Source of the DNA: Propioniciclava sinopodophylli
Lineage (GTDB): Bacteria; Actinomycetota; Actinomycetes; Propionibacteriales; Propionibacteriaceae
DNA: 64,000 nucleotides
Direction: 5' to 3'
NCBI RefSeq assembly: GCF_004324755.1
Contig: NZ_SDMQ01000006.1
Location: 1 to 64,000 of the forward strand
Part shown: piece after piece, positions 54,924 through 61,853 of the stretch
Numbering within the stretch: the stretch's first letter is position 1
Layout: every line of letters begins with the position of its first letter
The notes under the pieces: model-generated
Told to the model about the DNA's origin: nothing
Databases searched by the model: none
What the model saw: only the letters and a program-made list of their open reading frames with translations
Program-made: the position numbers and the translations under genes

Positions 54924-57581
54924 CTAGCGCTGCATGTCCACGAACCGACTGAGGGCACCCTGGAACGCCACTGGCAGGGTGTCGGTGGCACCGTTTCGAT
55001 GCTTGGCCACGATGAAGTCGGCCTCTCCCTGGCGAGGGGACTGCTTGTCGTAGGCATCCTCACGGTGGAGGAGGATCACCATGTCCGCATCCTGCTCCAG
55101 GGAGTTGTGCACGCTGATGCCATCAGCGATGAAGTTGTGGGTGTCCAGAACGGTCGCGTCGTAGACCTCTTCCTCGCCCACGAACTCGATGGAGGCGACG
55201 GCGTCCCAGTAGATGTCGCTGGTGGCCTCGCGTTCGAGTTCTGCCGACCCCACGATGCGGGCAGCACGAGCCAAGCGCTCGCGACTGGGGGAGTGCTTCC
55301 ACATCGTCGAGCCGCAGAACTGCGTCTCCATGGCAGCAGCGAACTGACGGTGGGTCATGCCGGCCGTCACCAACTGTGCGCGCACCTTCCGCCAAGCCTC
55401 GGCGGGCACGGTGTCCAGGTTCGTGTTCGGGACGATGCCCTCGAGATTCCGCAAGACCTCGTTGACACCTTCGCGGCGGGCGCCCCAGACGCCGATCTCC
55501 CAGCAGAACAAGCGCTGGGCTGCCGCGCCGTTGATAAGCACGTGGTAGCCGTCGCGGTAGCCGGCCTTCTGGGCTGTCTTGAGGCGTGCGACGATGCCGA
55601 AGCGACCGAGCAGACGCATGACGTCGTCGGCCAGTCGGCGGCTGGAGGTCGCGTAGTAGATGCGTCCTTGCCCGGCCTTGTCGTCCCAGCGGACCGACCC
55701 GTCTGTGGCCCACAAGTGGCTCAGGAAGAGGCCGACCTGCTCGCGCGGCAACTGGTGCACCCAGTCGGGCACGAACTTCTCGTGCGAACGCTTCCCGAAT
55801 AGACCCATCTCGTCCAGCCACGCGGCGATTGGGTTGCGGCGTCCGTGCGTCAGGTGGAACGGCGCAGGCAGGCGCAGCGTCGTCACGCGAGCGGCGGCGT
55901 ATTCGTCACGCACGGCCGTGATGCCGAACCGACGATCCGCAGCGTCCGCGACGATCTCGAGGTTCAACTCGTCGATGGATGCGTAACGGATCGGCTGGCG
56001 CTTCACGAACGAGCCGTCACCCAGCAGGTGCGCGAGCAGGATCACTTCGTCGTCATCGCGCTGGATCGGATTCAGCGGCTGGGGCACCATCCTTGGGATC
56101 GCCACGCGAGTGCCCTCGGTCAGTTCGCCCAGCGGCACCCAGCCGCCGTAGGTCAGGAAGGGGTGGTTGGCCGACGCCTTCACCTCGCGTCCGGACGCCA
56201 ACCGCAGCCGGAAGACCTCCTTGACCCCCGACGAGAAGACGTGCGTCATGGGGCGGGCGACCAAGCGACCCGAGGCGTCCAACGACCACACCGGCACGTT
56301 GCGCTCACCTGACTCCAGCAGCGAACCCATCGTCACCTCGGCACCCGTGTCGGCGCGCAGCACGCGCGTGTCGGCGGTCAGGCAGCCTGACTCGCGCAGG
56401 TCCGACAGCATCGGCTTCTTGTCCTGGCGCGCCTCGGGGCCACGGTTGAGCTGCGACAGCGCGACGACGGGAACCTCGAGTTCCTTGGCCAAGAGCTTGA
56501 TCTGGCGGGAGAACTCCGAGACCTCGAGCTGGCGGGATTCGACCTTCTTGCCCGAGGTCATCAGCTGCATGTAGTCGATGATGATCAGCTTGAGGTCGTT
56601 GCGCTGCTTCAGGCGGCGCGCCTTGGCGCGGATCTCCATCATCGTCAGGTTGGGGGAGTCGTCGATGAACAGCGGCGCCCGCGACACCTGCGCGGTCTTG
56701 TTCGAGATGCGCTGCCAGTACTCCTCGGTCATGTCGCCCTTGCGGATCGCGTTCAGCGGCACGCCCGACTCCGCGGACATGAGGCGCATCACGATCTCCG
56801 ACTTCGTCATCTCCAGGCTGAAGAAGACCGAGCACAGGCCGTGGCGAATGGACGCCGCGCGTGCGAAGTCCAGCCCCAGCGTCGACTTACCCATGCCGGG
56901 ACGGGCGGCGATGATGATCATCTGGCCCGGGTGTAGCCCGTTGGTCAGGTGGTCCAGGTCGATGAACCCGGTCGGGACTCCGGCCATCTGGCCGTGCTGG
57001 GTCAGCGCCTCGATCTCGTCGAGGGTAAGCTCCACCAGCTCCGACAAGGGCTGGTAGTCCTCCTTCGTCCGGTTCTCGGCGACCTCGTAGATCGTCTGCT
57101 GGGCCCGGTCGACGATGCCGGTGACGTCACCCTCGGCCTGGTAGCCCATCTGGGAGATCTTCATCGACGCATCGACCAGACGACGCAGGATCGCCTTGTC
57201 GCGGACGATCTCGGCGTAGTAGGTGGCGTTCGCCGTCACCGACACCGAGGACAGCAGCTCATGCAGGTAGATGTGGCCGCCGATCTGGCTGATCTGGCCC
57301 TTCTTGCCGAGGTGGTCGGCCACCGTGATGGCGTCCACCGGCTCGCCGGCGCCGTAGAGGTCCATGACCGCGTCAAAGACGTACTCGTGCGCGGGCCGGT
57401 AGAAGTCGCGGCCCTTCAGCACTTCGGTGACCTCGCCGATCGCGTCCTTGCTCAACAGCATCGCGCCGAGCACGCTCTGCTCGGCGGCCAGATCCTGCGG
57501 GGGCGTCCGATCGGCGTAGCCGCTGCCGCGCTGCTCGAAGGGGACGACATTGTCCGACCACTGCCCACGCTGCTCCGACAT
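54924..57581 (-). CDS. dnaB: Replicative DNA helicase DnaB with intein
   Basis: The 885-residue precursor holds DnaB in two parts. N-extein (1-399) covers the N-terminal domain, Walker A in AARPGMGKSTLGLDFAR, motif II KLIIIDYMQLMTSG and VALSQLNRGPEARQDKKPML; C-extein (827-885) begins SLEQDADMVILLHRED and ends FQGALSRFVDMQR. Spliced, it gives a normal 458-residue hexameric helicase. A DnaA-box-like cluster lies upstream. rplI and ssb, frequent neighbours, are not in the window. Confidence 0.95.
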   Translation of the reverse strand: MSEQRGQWSDNVVPFEQRGSGYADRTPPQDLAAEQSVLGAMLLSKDAIGEVTEVLKGRDFYRPAHEYVFDAVMDLYGAGEPVDAITVADHLGKKGQISQIGGHIYLHELLSSVSVTANATYYAEIVRDKAILRRLVDASMKISQMGYQAEGDVTGIVDRAQQTIYEVAENRTKEDYQPLSELVELTLDEIEALTQHGQMAGVPTGFIDLDHLTNGLHPGQMIIIAARPGMGKSTLGLDFARAASIRHGLCSVFFSLEMTKSEIVMRLMSAESGVPLNAIRKGDMTEEYWQRISNKTAQVSRAPLFIDDSPNLTMMEIRAKARRLKQRNDLKLIIIDYMQLMTSGKKVESRQLEVSEFSRQIKLLAKELEVPVVALSQLNRGPEARQDKKPMLSDLRESGCLTADTRVLRADTGAEVTMGSLLESGERNVPVWSLDASGRLVARPMTHVFSSGVKEVFRLRLASGREVKASANHPFLTYGGWVPLGELTEGTRVAIPRMVPQPLNPIQRDDDEVILLAHLLGDGSFVKRQPIRYASIDELNLEIVADAADRRFGITAVRDEYAAARVTTLRLPAPFHLTHGRRNPIAAWLDEMGLFGKRSHEKFVPDWVHQLPREQVGLFLSHLWATDGSVRWDDKAGQGRIYYATSSRRLADDVMRLLGRFGIVARLKTAQKAGYRDGYHVLINGAAAQRLFCWEIGVWGARREGVNEVLRNLEGIVPNTNLDTVPAEAWRKVRAQLVTAGMTHRQFAAAMETQFCGSTMWKHSPSRERLARAARIVGSAELEREATSDIYWDAVASIEFVGEEEVYDATVLDTHNFIADGISVHNSLEQDADMVILLHREDAYDKQSPRQGEADFIVAKHRNGATDTLPVAFQGALSRFVDMQR
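55104..56384 (-). other. DnaB intein with LAGLIDADG homing endonuclease
   Basis: A 427-residue intein sits between RESG and SLEQD, the site of the Synechocystis DnaB intein. It starts Cys (CLTADTRVLRADTGAEV) and ends ADGISVHN, with block B VKASANHPFLTYG. Endonuclease motifs are ILLAHLLGDGSF and FLSHLWATDGSVRW. All splicing residues are present: Cys1, the block B His, final His-Asn and Ser+1. Confidence 0.93.
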
Positions 57582-57704
57582 CCCACTCCCTCATCCGACC
57601 TGCTCCCACTCAAGCGGCAGGGTCTGACACTTCCTGGCCGTCGGGGGTTCAGACGACGTTAGACCCTGTGTGCCCCGCCGCCAAACGAGTCATCCACCCC
57701 CGGT

Positions 57705-57939
57705 TGTGGATGAACTGTGGATGACTGTGGACCCACGGCGTCCGGCCTGTGCGCGACACGCCGTCGTAGCTGGGGATCCCGCAGAACTTCTCGCCTCAAC
57801 CGCGCTCCGGCTAGGGCGTATGGTGCGTGGAGGCTGGGGATGGGGGAGACTTTTCACTTCTTGGGATGAGTGGCGCCGGAGGTTGACCACCCTCCCGTGC
57901 GGGGTGCTATGGGGCCGAGTCATGCACCGGTTGTCCACA
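57705..57939. other. DnaA-box-like cluster upstream of dnaB
   Basis: TGTGGA repeats at 57705, 57716 and 57726 in the phase TGTGGATGA, TGTGGATGA, TGTGGACCC, and a perfect actinobacterial box TTGTCCACA lies at 57931-57939. No gene is seen in 57582-58023 apart from these boxes and the csoR control region. They may regulate dnaB or bind spare DnaA. Confidence 0.4.
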
Positions 57940-57982
57940 GGGACGAGGGTATCTGCTCAAGTGTCGCTGAGCTTTGGGGGAA

Positions 57983-58003
57983 CACACCCCTGGGGGGTAT
58001 GAT
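57983..58003 (+). promoter_or_regulatory. CsoR operator and -10 box of the copper operon
   Basis: CACACCCCTGGGGGGTATG (57983-58001) is a pseudo-palindrome with the C/G-run core typical of CsoR sites, and it overlaps a TATGAT -10 box at 57998-58003. No good -35 is visible. Confidence 0.65.
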
Positions 58004-58023
58004 TTCCGGTGCGAGGAGGAAAC

Positions 58024-58410
58024 ATGACCGAGCGCACCATCCCCACGATCCCCGACGACGCGAGCACGCTGGACGTGGCGTCGCCAGCCGGCTGTGGCTG
58101 CCACGGTGAAGCCGCGGACGCCGACCACCAGCACGGCTACATCACGGCGAAGGAGAACTACCAGCGCCGCCTGCGCCGCATCGAGGGTCAGGCCCGCGGG
58201 CTCCAGCGCATGGTGGAGGAGGAGAAGTACTGCATCGACATCCTGACGCAGATCTCCGCCATGACGAAGGCGCTGCAGTCCGTCGCGCTCGAACTCCTCG
58301 AGGACCACATGGCCCACTGCGTGGTCGCAGCCGCCCGCGAGGGTGGCCCGGCCGCGGAGGAGAAGATCCAGGAGGCGTCCGAAGCGATCGCGCGCCTCGT
58401 CCGCAGCTGA
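58024..58410 (+). CDS. csoR: Copper-sensing repressor CsoR
   Basis: A 128-residue all-helical repressor that leaves DNA on Cu(I) binding. YQRRLRRIEGQARGLQRMVE is the family start; Cu ligands are Cys in EEKYCIDILTQISAM and His/Cys in LLEDHMAHCVVAAAR (the C-H-C set). An extra N-terminus of about 45 residues carries GCGCHGEAADADHQHGY, possible additional metal ligands. GAGGAGG precedes the ATG. First gene of csoR, CopZ-like, copA. Confidence 0.93.
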   Translation: MTERTIPTIPDDASTLDVASPAGCGCHGEAADADHQHGYITAKENYQRRLRRIEGQARGLQRMVEEEKYCIDILTQISAMTKALQSVALELLEDHMAHCVVAAAREGGPAAEEKIQEASEAIARLVRS

Positions 58411-58435
58411 CCCACCATTCACAAGGAGAATCACC

Positions 58436-58888
58436 ATGGTTGACCTCACGATCAAGGACGCCAACGCCGCCGCCTCCGGCGGGGGGTGTGGCTGTGGCGG
58501 CTGTGGCTGTGGCGGCGACGCCCAGGCCACCCCGGTGCAGGAGCCCCAGGCCCAGGCCGCCGGCTGCAACTGCGGCCCGGACTGCGACTGCGGCTGCCAG
58601 GAGGGCAAGCCCTGTACCTGCGGCGACAAGGCCTCGTCCGGCTCGGCCGCACCGTCGGCCGCCAGCGGCGTCATCGGTGGCGGCCAGGTGGCCCAGTACA
58701 CCGTCTCCGGCATGACCTGCAGCCACTGCGTCAACGCGGTCACCGAGGAGATCTCCGCGATCCCCGGCGTCACCGACGTGCAGGTCGACCTGGAGTCCGG
58801 CTCGCTGAAGGTGGCCTCGGAAGCCCCGGTCGACTTCGACCGCATCGTGGAGGCCGTCGCCGAGGCGGGCGACTACACCGTCTCCTGA
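58436..58888 (+). CDS. Cys-rich (metallothionein-like) protein fused to a CopZ domain
   Basis: The 150-residue protein has an N-terminal Cys-rich segment (about 15-65) with GGGCGCGGCGCGGD and CNCGPDCDCGCQEGKPCTCG, eleven Cys in all, then a Ser/Ala linker and a C-terminal HMA domain (about 85-150) with the Cu site in YTVSGMTCSHCVNAVTEEIS. The HMA part is the usual CopZ chaperone that hands Cu(I) to CopA. The Cys-rich part resembles bacterial copper metallothioneins and could store copper. AAGGAG precedes the ATG. Confidence 0.85.
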   Translation: MVDLTIKDANAAASGGGCGCGGCGCGGDAQATPVQEPQAQAAGCNCGPDCDCGCQEGKPCTCGDKASSGSAAPSAASGVIGGGQVAQYTVSGMTCSHCVNAVTEEISAIPGVTDVQVDLESGSLKVASEAPVDFDRIVEAVAEAGDYTVS

Positions 58889-58894
58889 TGATTC

Positions 58895-58928
58895 CCCGGC
58901 TGGGCCTGTCGAGGCAGGCCCAGCCGGG
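58895..58928 (+). terminator. Hairpin between CopZ-like gene and copA
   Basis: A perfect 14-base stem CCCGGCTGGGCCTG with a six-base loop starts seven bases after the CopZ-like stop. It may reduce transcription into copA, giving more chaperone than pump. Confidence 0.7.
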
Positions 58929-59024
58929 CCCCACACCTGAATACCCAACCCTTCCGCCAGGGCCGGTCAGTCCTCGGGGTCGCCCGACCACCCGCCGGTC
59001 CTCCGCACCAAGGAGTGATCCACC

Positions 59025-61295
59025 GTGGCCATCACGCCCACGACAAACGACGAGCGACGTGAATCGTTCGAACTCGACATCGACGGCATGACCTGCGCGA
59101 GCTGCGCGGCCCGCATCGAGAAGAAGCTCAACAAGGTCGACGGCGTCATCGCGTCCGTCAACTACGCCACCGAGAAGGCCAAGGTCCTGGCCCCGCTCGG
59201 CACCACCACCTCCGACCTCATCAAGGTCGTCGAGGCCACCGGCTACGGCGCACGGCGTCCCGACCCGGCGGCGCCCCAGGTCGACCGCGCGGCCCCCATC
59301 CGCCGGGACCTGGTGCTCAGCGCCGTCCTCGCCGTCCCCGTCATCGCGATCGCGATGGTTCCCGCCCTGCAGTTCCCGGGCTGGACGTGGGCGTCCCTGC
59401 TGCTGACCGCGCCCGTCTACTTCTGGGCCGGACGCCGCTTCCACCACTCCGCGTGGGTCAACCTCAAGCACGGCGCCACCACGATGGACACCCTGATCTC
59501 GCTCGGCACCTCCGCCGCGTTCTGGTACTCGGTGTGGGCACTGCTCTTCACCCACGCCGGCGACCTCCACTACACGCACCCCTTCGAGTTCTCGATCGGG
59601 CGCTCGGACGGAGCCTCGGTCTACTTCGAGGCCGTCGCCGGCATCACGACGTTCCTGTTGGCCGGACGCTGGTTCGAGGCCCGCTCCAAGAGCCAGAGTT
59701 CCGAGGCGCTGCGCGCCCTGCTGACGCTCGGGGCGTCCGAGGCCACCGTGTTGCGCGACGGCGTGGAGCAGCGCCTTCCCATCGACTTCCTCAAGCTGGA
59801 CGACGAGTTCGTCGTCCGCCCGGGCGAGAAGATCGCGACGGACGGTGTGATCGTGTCGGGCACCGGCGCCGTCGACGAGGCGATGGTCACCGGTGAGTCG
59901 GTTCCCGTCGACAAGCACCCGGGCGATCGCGTGCTCGGCGCCACGCTGAACGCGAACGGACGCCTCGTCGTGCGCGCCACCGCGCTCGGCGGCGACACCG
60001 AGCTGGCCCGCATGGCGCGCATGGTCGAGGAGGCCCAGACCCGGAAGGCGCCGATCCAGGCGCTCGCCGACAGGATCTCGGGCATCTTCGTGCCCATCGT
60101 CCTCGTCATCGCCGCGCTGACCTTCGTGGGGTGGCTGCTGGCGGGGGAGGGCATCCTGTTCGCCGCCACGGCGGCGGTGGCCGTGCTGATCATCGCCTGC
60201 CCGTGCGCCCTCGGCCTCGCCACCCCGACCGCCCTGTTGGTCGGCACCGGCGTCGGCGCCCGGATGGGCGCGATCATCGCCGGCCCGGACGTGCTCGAGC
60301 GCGCCCGAGCCGTCCGCACCATCGCGCTGGACAAGACCGGCACCGTCACCCGCGGCGACCTGCGCGTCGTGGCCGTCCACCCGGCCGACGGGGTCACGGA
60401 GGCCGAGCTGCTCCGCCTGGCCGGCACAGCCGAGTCCGGCTCGGAGCACCCCCTGGCCCGCGCCATCGTCGCGGCGGCGTCCGATGGCGGGCTGGGCGAG
60501 CTGGGGCAGTTCGAGAACACCCCCGGCGAGGGCGTCCGCGCGCTGGTCGACGGGGTCGAGGTCGCCGTCCTGCGGCCGGACGCCGCCGAGGGCTTGCCTT
60601 CCGCGCTCGCGTCCGTCATCGAGGACGCCCAAAGTCGCGGCGAGACGCCCGTCGTGGTGCAGGTCCGGCTCCCTGGGCCGGTCGACGGGGCATCGCCGAG
60701 CTCAGACAGCCGGGACGGCTCAGGCGGCCGCGCAGTCGGGGTCATCTCCCTGGCCGACACGGTCAAGGAGTCGTCGGCCGAGGCGATCGGCCGGATGAAG
60801 GATCTCGGCCTGACCCCGGTGCTGCTGACCGGCGACAACGAACGCGCCGCACGCGCGGTGGCGACACGGGTCGGCATCGACGAGGTGCGCGCGAACGTGC
60901 GCCCCGAGGGCAAGGTCGAGGTGGTCCGCGAGCTGCAGGCCCGCGGGCAGGTGGCGATGGTCGGCGACGGCGTCAACGACGCGGCCGCGCTCGCGGCGTC
61001 CGACCTCGGCATCGCCATGGGGTCGGGAACCGACGCCGCCAAGGAGGCCGCCGGCATCACCCTGATGCGCGGCGACCTCATGCTGGCGGTCGACGCGATC
61101 CGGCTGTCGCGGCGCACGCTGCGCACGATCCGGACCAACCTGTTCTGGGCGTTCGCGTACAACGTCGCCGCGATCCCGCTGGCCGCGCTGGGCATGCTGA
61201 CGCCGATGATCGCCGGCGCCGCCATGGCGTTCAGCTCGGTGTTCGTCGTCGCCAACTCGCTGCTGCTGCGCGGGTTCCGTCCCTCGACCCGCTGA
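59025..61295 (+). CDS. copA: Copper-exporting P1B ATPase CopA
   Basis: A 756-residue membrane pump for Cu(I). One N-terminal HMA domain has [20 protein letters not shown]; eight helices follow, with [16 protein letters not shown]-type actuator loop, CPC in [20 protein letters not shown], phosphorylated Asp in [15 protein letters not shown], and [21 protein letters not shown] Ser/Gly-rich insert lies in the nucleotide domain near 60680-60730. GTG at 59025 follows AAGGAG. It completes the CsoR regulon. Confidence 0.94.
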
Positions 61296-61343
61296 GCGGC
61301 CCATGACCCGATCCTCCCAGCCCTGAGTCCGTCGCCCGCCCCG

Positions 61344-61407
61344 GTGTGCACTTCGAGCTCGCAGAACCATCGCCACAGCGATGGGATCGCCGCCTCGAAG
61401 TGCACAC
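61344..61407. repeat. 64-bp palindromic element, copy C
   Basis: GTGTGCACTTCGAG at the left pairs with its near-perfect complement at the right end, and an inner stem CCATCGC/GCGATGG is intact. Read backwards it matches copies A and B. It lies between the convergent copA and YchJ-like genes. Confidence 0.85.
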
Positions 61408-61472
61408 CCGTGGGCGCACACCACCCCCTGCCTGAGCTCGTCGAGGGGCCTCGACGAACCGGCCGACCGTGA

Positions 61473-61853
61473 CTAGTGGAGCGTGCCGTTCACGTACACC
61501 CAGCGCCCGTCCAGCAGGGCGAAGCGCGACGTCTCGCGCAGGACGCCCGCGTGGCGCCCCGACTCCCAAGAGGCGGCGAACCGGACAGTTCCGTCGTCCT
61601 CCCAGGCCGAGCCCTTGGTGGTGTCCTCGATGACCAGGCCGGTCCAGGTCATGGCCGGGTCGAGGTCGACCGAGGCGGGCCGGGTGGAGGGGTGCCACGA
61701 CTCCAACAGGTAGCCCTCCAGGCCGAGCGCGAACGCGGAGTACCGCGACCGCATCAGCTGGACGGCCGTGGCCGCCACGCGGCGTCCGTCGTGGATCGCG
61801 CCGCAGCACGCCTCGTAGGGCCTGCCCGTTCCGCAGGGGCAGGTCTCACGCAT
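61473..61853 (-). CDS. YchJ family (UPF0225) protein
   Basis: A 126-residue protein with an N-terminal SEC-C-like metal motif CPCGTGRPYEACCG and a NTF2-like domain: TAVQLMRSRYSAFALGLEGY, then SWHPSTRPASVDL and a C-terminal FALLDGRWVYVNG. Members are small metal-binding proteins of unknown function. It overlaps the glycosyltransferase gene upstream by eight bases. Confidence 0.88.
   Translation of the reverse strand: MRETCPCGTGRPYEACCGAIHDGRRVAATAVQLMRSRYSAFALGLEGYLLESWHPSTRPASVDLDPAMTWTGLVIEDTTKGSAWEDDGTVRFAASWESGRHAGVLRETSRFALLDGRWVYVNGTLH

Follow-up and report, generated by a model that had tools for sequence, protein, structure and literature searches.

The closest published architecture that we found is the CopZ copper chaperone of Archaeoglobus fulgidus, whose fused N-terminal Cys-rich domain, as described in passages of PMC7558416, contains an iron-sulfur cluster and has Cu(II)-reducing activity. 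The protein analysed here, from Propioniciclava sinopodophylli, is also extended at its N terminus, but, to judge by those passages, the added domain is of a different kind, with short, repeated Cys motifs reminiscent of metallothioneins. Functionally, the nearest protein in Actinomycetota, likened by description only, is MymT of mycobacteria, which the same passages present as a small Cys-rich copper protein predicted to bind up to six Cu(I) (PMC7558416) and which, unlike the fusion, stands alone. Csp proteins, which store copper in the cytosol, can be supplied with Cu(I) by CopZ in Streptomyces lividans, as the same passages state (PMC7558416). Unlike the arm of the fusion, a Csp is a protein of its own that folds as a four-helix bundle. 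For fungal, mollusc and tunicate metallothioneins, capacities altered by tandem duplication of Cys modules are reported (PMC8283569, PMC9781358, PMC12508003); these eukaryotic proteins stand on their own, whereas in Propioniciclava the module array sits on a chaperone. CopZ/Atx1-type chaperones (PF00403) resemble the C-terminal 60 residues of the fusion, a complete HMA domain with MTCSHC encoded in a csoR-copA operon, but they lack the additional stretch of some 80 residues, rich in Cys, that makes up its N-terminal half. A full-text literature search, outside which subscription papers mostly fall, returned neither a published account of a CopZ-module fusion nor a paper containing both CGPDC and metallothionein.

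The stretch of DNA that we analysed (64,000 nucleotides, hereafter the window) belongs to a genome of 3.07 Mb. The fusion gene lies 25 nt downstream of csoR and 136 nt upstream of copA (see the table below). An initial sequence-only reading had proposed a csoR-fusion-copA operon, and Pfam bears out the identities of both flanking genes. The csoR product contains a Trns_repr_metal domain (104.7 bits, above the cut-off of 22.8), and the copA product additionally scores above the cut-off of the NCBIfam copper-translocating ATPase model TIGR01511. We consider it rather probable that the fusion is a copper chaperone under CsoR control to which an unfolded buffer is attached, one that holds Cu(I) as thiolate and gains or loses capacity with the number of modules. 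Elsewhere in the window, positions 54924-57581 on the minus strand encode a DnaB replicative helicase that contains an intein, the latter with an endonuclease domain of the LAGLIDADG type (PF14890, PF14528), and the neighbour of copA at 61473-61853, also on the minus strand, is a YchJ-like protein with a SEC-C motif.

Table. Features of the csoR-fusion-copA locus, in window coordinates, and module peptides of other loci, with the locus given before each range.
Feature	Coordinates	Strand	Description	Basis
CsoR/RicR-type operator candidate	57986..57998	+	ACCCCTGGGGGGT, 26 nt 5' of the csoR ATG	
csoR	58024..58410	+	copper-sensing repressor, CsoR/RicR type, N-terminal tail rich in Cys/His	PF02583, E 3.3e-30
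Metallothionein-module/CopZ fusion gene	58436..58888	+	150 aa, ATG start	ORF, Pfam, orthologues
Module A	58487..58510	+	CGCGGCGC, residues 18-25, 4 Cys	orthologue conservation
Module B	58565..58621	+	CNCGPDCDCGCQEGKPCTC, residues 44-62, 7 Cys	pattern, orthologues
HMA (CopZ) domain	58697..58870	+	residues 88-145, Cu(I) site MTCSHC	PF00403
Inverted repeat between fusion and copA	58895..58928	+	perfect 14 bp, 6-nt loop	
copA	59025..61295	+	P1B-type ATPase, one N-terminal HMA domain	PF00122, PF00702, PF00403
Mini-metallothionein peptides beside a TACANNTGTA box	L132:5296-5410, L313:3467-3576, L314:2746-2860, L315:4779-4896			

The fusion protein consists, in order, of MVDLTIKDANAAASGGG, module A, a linker, the module B cluster CNCGPDCDCGCQEGKPCTCG, a second linker, and the HMA domain. 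Its N-terminal part contains 11 Cys (residues 18, 20, 23, 25, 44, 46, 50, 52, 54, 60 and 62), to which the Cys pair of MTCSHC is additional. The HMA domain matches PF00403 with E 6.6e-15 and 55.7 bits (cut-off 24.8) and has its CxxC site, as expected of an HMA chaperone, although curated CopZ models of NCBIfam stay below their cut-offs (best 60.6 bits against 85, and 55.2 against 91). The proposal that a metallothionein-like segment and a complete CopZ domain share one chain is thus upheld. A search of the N-terminal part against protein families, which had also been suggested, could be carried through, but for the 84 residues alone neither Pfam nor NCBIfam gave a match at E <= 1; likewise, no metallothionein family model matched the N-terminal half, or a four-module protein of P. 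tarda, at E <= 1. What identifies this half as metallothionein-like is its density of CxC motifs together with Cys that are kept by selection (see below). The Cys-rich segment is composed of two modules, A and B, of which B can be amplified in tandem. The 7-Cys pattern of module B occurs once in the 64 kb of the window and in none of 100 shuffles.

An AlphaFold2 model, built on an alignment of 6 sequences and with no metal, has a mean pLDDT of 56.9. Residues 1-45, 47-58 and 63-82 fall under 50 and are predicted to be disordered. The HMA half reaches pLDDT values of 67-82 by blocks of 10 residues and folds as beta-alpha-beta-beta-alpha (strand 84-91, helix 96-107, strands 112-118 and 123-128, helix 134-144, and a strand near 148-149). 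A disordered arm beside a folded HMA domain, as modelled, would be expected for an apo-metallothionein joined to CopZ. Were the arm instead to supply a copper target different from CopA, to sense redox state or to reduce Cu(II), the N-terminal domain of A. fulgidus CopZ, for which passages of PMC7558416 describe a reductase role, would provide the precedent for such a Cys-rich addition. However, the arm has metallothionein-like Cys spacing, predicted disorder and tandem repetition, all unlike a folded iron-sulfur domain, and a folded N-terminal domain of the Archaeoglobus type was not found in the model (pLDDT under 50) or by Pfam (no domain at E <= 1). We therefore regard this alternative as very improbable.

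Orthologues were sought in 57 genomes, of which 13, with the window genome counted in, belong to Propioniciclava; we take the genus in a wide sense, with records that include P. tarda, P. soli, Propioniciclava sp. and Nigerium massiliense. Module A, at least one module B and the HMA domain occur together in nine genomes (G000-G003 and G005-G009), and two more (G011 and G012) have module A and the HMA domain without module B. In G004, module B lies at a contig end, with no module A ahead of it, and the sequence stops before any HMA domain; G010, a genome that is 73% complete, has no fusion in the stretch read and instead a different CopZ, with a CACC motif, ahead of copA. All 11 complete orthologues sit between csoR and copA. 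The module A site has three or four Cys in each of these 11, and module B is present in nine of them with the same Cys spacing, in 0, 1, 2 or 4 copies across the set: two in tandem in G002 and four in G003 (P. tarda DSM 22130). Counted by script in ten orthologues, the N-terminal Cys number 3, 4, 10, 11 (five genomes), 18 and 31; the script pattern did not match G006, in which we counted 10 by eye. The linkers differ among orthologues in both length and sequence. Since two of the 11 orthologues lack module B with the operon kept, this module is dispensable.

These patterns bear on whether the two halves exchange copper at all. The arm could be a detoxification metallothionein that is tethered to CopZ for co-expression, with no transfer of copper between the halves. 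The variable linkers suggest no conserved, fixed contact between the halves; module B is also found alone and on unrelated proteins, so that it needs no partner; and two orthologues do without it. Yet a separate metallothionein gene would suffice for such a role, and none of the 11 complete orthologues lacks the fusion, in which module A sits directly on the CopZ chain throughout. Mere tethering thus appears unlikely to us, and we continue to favour a chaperone that draws on its own attached buffer.

The Cys of module B are under evident constraint. Over 14 copies of the module, 98 of 98 Cys codons are kept (81 TGC and 17 TGT), and pN and pS are 0.099 and 0.455, compared with 0.114 and 0.311 for the HMA domain; module B is under purifying selection. 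The sequence-only reading had itself named an outcome that would count against a metallothionein, namely that the Cys-rich stretch is a variable spacer of low complexity that close relatives lack. The orthologues mostly refute this, as module A recurs in 11 of 11 and module B in nine of 11 with the same Cys spacing, although the loss of module B in two of 11 and the variability of the linkers agree with it in part. More generally, a disordered spacer with no metal role would account for the predicted disorder and for Gly/Ala/Ser-rich linkers of variable length, but not for the retention of all Cys in 14 module copies despite synonymous differences, nor for the same 7-Cys spacing in other phyla. 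That reading is already largely refuted, and we give it hardly any weight. In a CopA tree, the genus groups with support of 94/93, just below our threshold of 95/80. Branches that reach the threshold require two separate changes for the two species without module B, and the two-copy and four-copy species fall on different branches. The simplest history is a single ancestor with both A and B, followed by two losses and two amplifications of B.

The fusion is restricted to Propioniciclava in the genomes read, which answers the suggestion that the same architecture be looked for in Propionibacteriaceae: it is present in that family, in this genus only. A profile of module B matched strongly in 10 of 198 genomes of the family, all Propioniciclava (E <= 2.7e-10), and three further family matches were weak (E >= 1.2e-3). 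One of these weak matches, L048, is a Cys-rich protein that stands alone and has 107 residues when read from the first visible ATG, or 88 from a nearer Met. Over a sample of 396 genomes of the phylum, the only strong match was that of the window itself; L053 and L055, which are Streptomyces-like and of the class Actinomycetes, gave weak matches to short proteins ending CGCGSGCGCGCQSGNPCQCG/CGCGSGCGCGCQSG-PCQCG, with the Cys spacing of module B. The 16 best-matching loci of the same family outside the genus have no Cys-rich CopZ start, their CopZ being plain, and one same-family match (G016) that seemingly reached residue 18 proved on reading to be a plain CopZ as well. We also considered a wider class of Cys-tailed CopZ in Actinomycetota and rejected it: among the matches listed in a search of 394 genomes of the class, eight loci that reach the N-terminal half were read, and none has module A or B; in two of them, L296 and L300, the HMA domain is preceded by a short motif, SCC or CSCC. 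Separately, we observed a second actinobacterial type of CopZ, in which a short CxCC or SCC motif precedes the HMA domain (L002, L293, L296 and L300). The window genome encodes a CopZ of this type on another contig (G000:C8).

Module B itself has a much wider distribution than the fusion. A DNA pattern for CxCGx[DE]CxCGCxxGxxCxC found 97 stretches in the genome collection. Readable loci were obtained for 80 of them; 22 of these loci were set aside by eye as CG-type repeats or reading-frame noise, leaving 58, seven of them from Propioniciclava. An HMA motif shares the open reading frame of the module in six of the 58, all Propioniciclava, and the seventh Propioniciclava locus is cut. Among the other 51 loci, 17 encode a short protein, with a length of 28 to 86 residues when counted from the first ATG; examples come from Nocardia, Bacilli and Erysipelotrichaceae, and in form these proteins are mini-metallothioneins. 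By Pfam, the module is also embedded in, or attached to the end of, methylmalonyl-CoA mutase (L058), diaminopimelate epimerase DapF (L064), phosphomannose isomerase (L082), a Band 7 protein (L093), a YlbF-type protein (L105) and FKBP (L088), and ahead of a SIMPL domain in L061, each such graft resting on a single assembly, many of which are metagenome bins from rumen and other sources. Even outside the Cys, the residues of the module (GPDC, CGCQEGK) hardly differ from phylum to phylum; this similarity suggests a common origin together with horizontal spread, 19 residues being too few for proof.

The nearest Pfam model to the stand-alone relatives of module B is PF02067 (Metallothionein family 5, dipteran). 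With two stand-alone peptides it scores 17.1 and 15.1 bits and stays below its cut-off of 25, which a repeated-module protein of Erysipelotrichaceae (L078) exceeds with 30.9 bits; it matches neither the fusion protein of the window nor the four-module P. tarda protein. The resemblance is likely due to convergence or very remote kinship. Carriage by viruses or phages was considered and discarded: among 109 viral stretches with 102 open reading frames of module length, two passed a filter for non-repetitive sequence, and both were CG-type repeats, hence noise. In plasmids, 157 records match the fusion protein, none over 80% of it, and the 30 matches listed are to the HMA part; the stand-alone module peptide has no plasmid match. 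The P. tarda protein matches seven phage records, all in the HMA part only.

A link to copper outside Propioniciclava comes from Patescibacteria. In a Candidatus Shapirobacteria locus (L132), an HMA/DsbD_2 gene with a weak cupredoxin match is followed by a P1B ATPase (PF00122, PF00403, CPC motif) and then by a 28-residue peptide that comprises little beyond module B. The sequence TACANNTGTA, which we take to be a CopY box, that is, an operator of the CopY/BlaI type, precedes or overlaps each of the three gene starts (three boxes against 0.03 expected, with three reached in 0 of 200 shuffles). Three more genomes with a module peptide emerged from samples of the class (233 genomes) and the family (34 genomes), with family-profile E-values that are inflated for two of the three because the profile included their own modules. 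The fetched stretches of L313, L314 and L315 contain exactly one TACANNTGTA box each, adjoining the peptide; counted from coordinates, it lies 22-23 nt before the peptide ATG in L313 and L315. The peptide of L314 has five of the seven Cys and no clear start. A Penicillinase_R regulator (PF03965, BlaI/CopY family) adjoins the peptide in L313 and L314. BlaI/MecI regulators use a box resembling that of CopY, and the box alone is therefore no proof of copper. The combination of box and pump in L132 constitutes a copper link that is independent of Propioniciclava.

A P1B pump was found nearby only in L132 among 39 non-Propioniciclava loci scanned by motif, and TACANNTGTA was found upstream of the module only in L132 among the 58 loci kept. 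Most module carriers thus show no copper context and may bind other metals, and there are only two places where the link between module and copper is firm. Bacterial modules rich in CxC are able to bind several metals. The arm of the fusion might accordingly bind Zn(II) or Cd(II) and serve redox purposes or buffer zinc, in which case it would lie in a copper operon by accident; this versatility and the many module loci with no copper gene in the DNA examined would fit such a role, but the arm is surrounded by a CsoR-type regulator, CopA and CopZ, and operator boxes with a copper-pump neighbour recur in a separate phylum. We judge Zn(II) or Cd(II) to be an improbable ligand. We tentatively propose, as a possibility, that module B is a dispersed, self-sufficient 19-residue, 7-Cys copper-thionein cassette of many bacterial phyla, which has moved both as a mini-metallothionein on its own and as a graft onto unrelated proteins, and whose graft onto CopZ in Propioniciclava gave the chaperone its own Cu(I) store, with a size tuned in each species by cassette number.

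With regard to regulation, the csoR product scores 142 bits against the NCBIfam RicR model, below the cut-off of 175, and by that model it is not RicR, the regulator that controls MymT. The sequence ACCCC-N2..6-GGGGT, which we assume to be the form of the CsoR operator, lies just 5' of csoR in 11 of 12 Propioniciclava loci, the exception being G002. The single operator-like site of the window is not significant alone, since at least one match occurred in 16 of 100 shuffles. Upstream of the module, this form was found in the stretch examined of two of the 58 loci, both Propioniciclava. The sequence-only reading had further pointed to extra N-terminal Cys and His in CsoR as a sign of a locus enriched in thiol ligands. 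The tail is real, but it is variable within the genus, and CsoR proteins of other genera, in which CopZ is plain, have tails like it (L020, L021 and L027); it therefore gives no support for a special link with the fusion. A hairpin 3' of the fusion was considered as a conserved attenuator and rejected, with a perfect stem of nine or more in only five of 11 orthologous loci. A promoter scan of 57600-61600 found no sigma-70-type site, and Rfam had no match in the window.

A chaperone with an attached buffer would operate as follows. Excess Cu(I) would free CsoR from the operator ahead of csoR, and csoR, fusion and copA would then be expressed together. The N-terminal Cys modules would take up several Cu(I) as thiolate clusters and so serve as a local buffer, and the C-terminal CopZ domain would carry one Cu(I) via MTCSHC to CopA, a delivery that we infer from the gene neighbourhood. 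Joining both in a single chain would concentrate the donor cluster in the vicinity of the chaperone site, and loss or tandem duplication of module B would change the capacity, given the 3 to 31 N-terminal Cys of the orthologues. The identity of the metal as Cu(I), its binding in clusters, the buffering role and the transfer between halves are all presumed here. One protein would thus probably both take up excess copper and deliver copper for export.

Copper storage in bacteria, by metallothioneins and Csps, and copper delivery, by CopZ, have been treated as the jobs of separate proteins, and the Propioniciclava fusion would be a natural version of both in one chain. The recurrence of the 7-Cys module in distant phyla, accompanied in Patescibacteria by an operator of copper type, suggests a class of bacterial metallothioneins that is unmodelled by Pfam and NCBIfam. 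Within the genus, close species with 0, 1, 2 or 4 modules form a natural series for the hand-over of Cu(I) from store to chaperone, and this series also fits the question of whether storage capacity sets copper tolerance.
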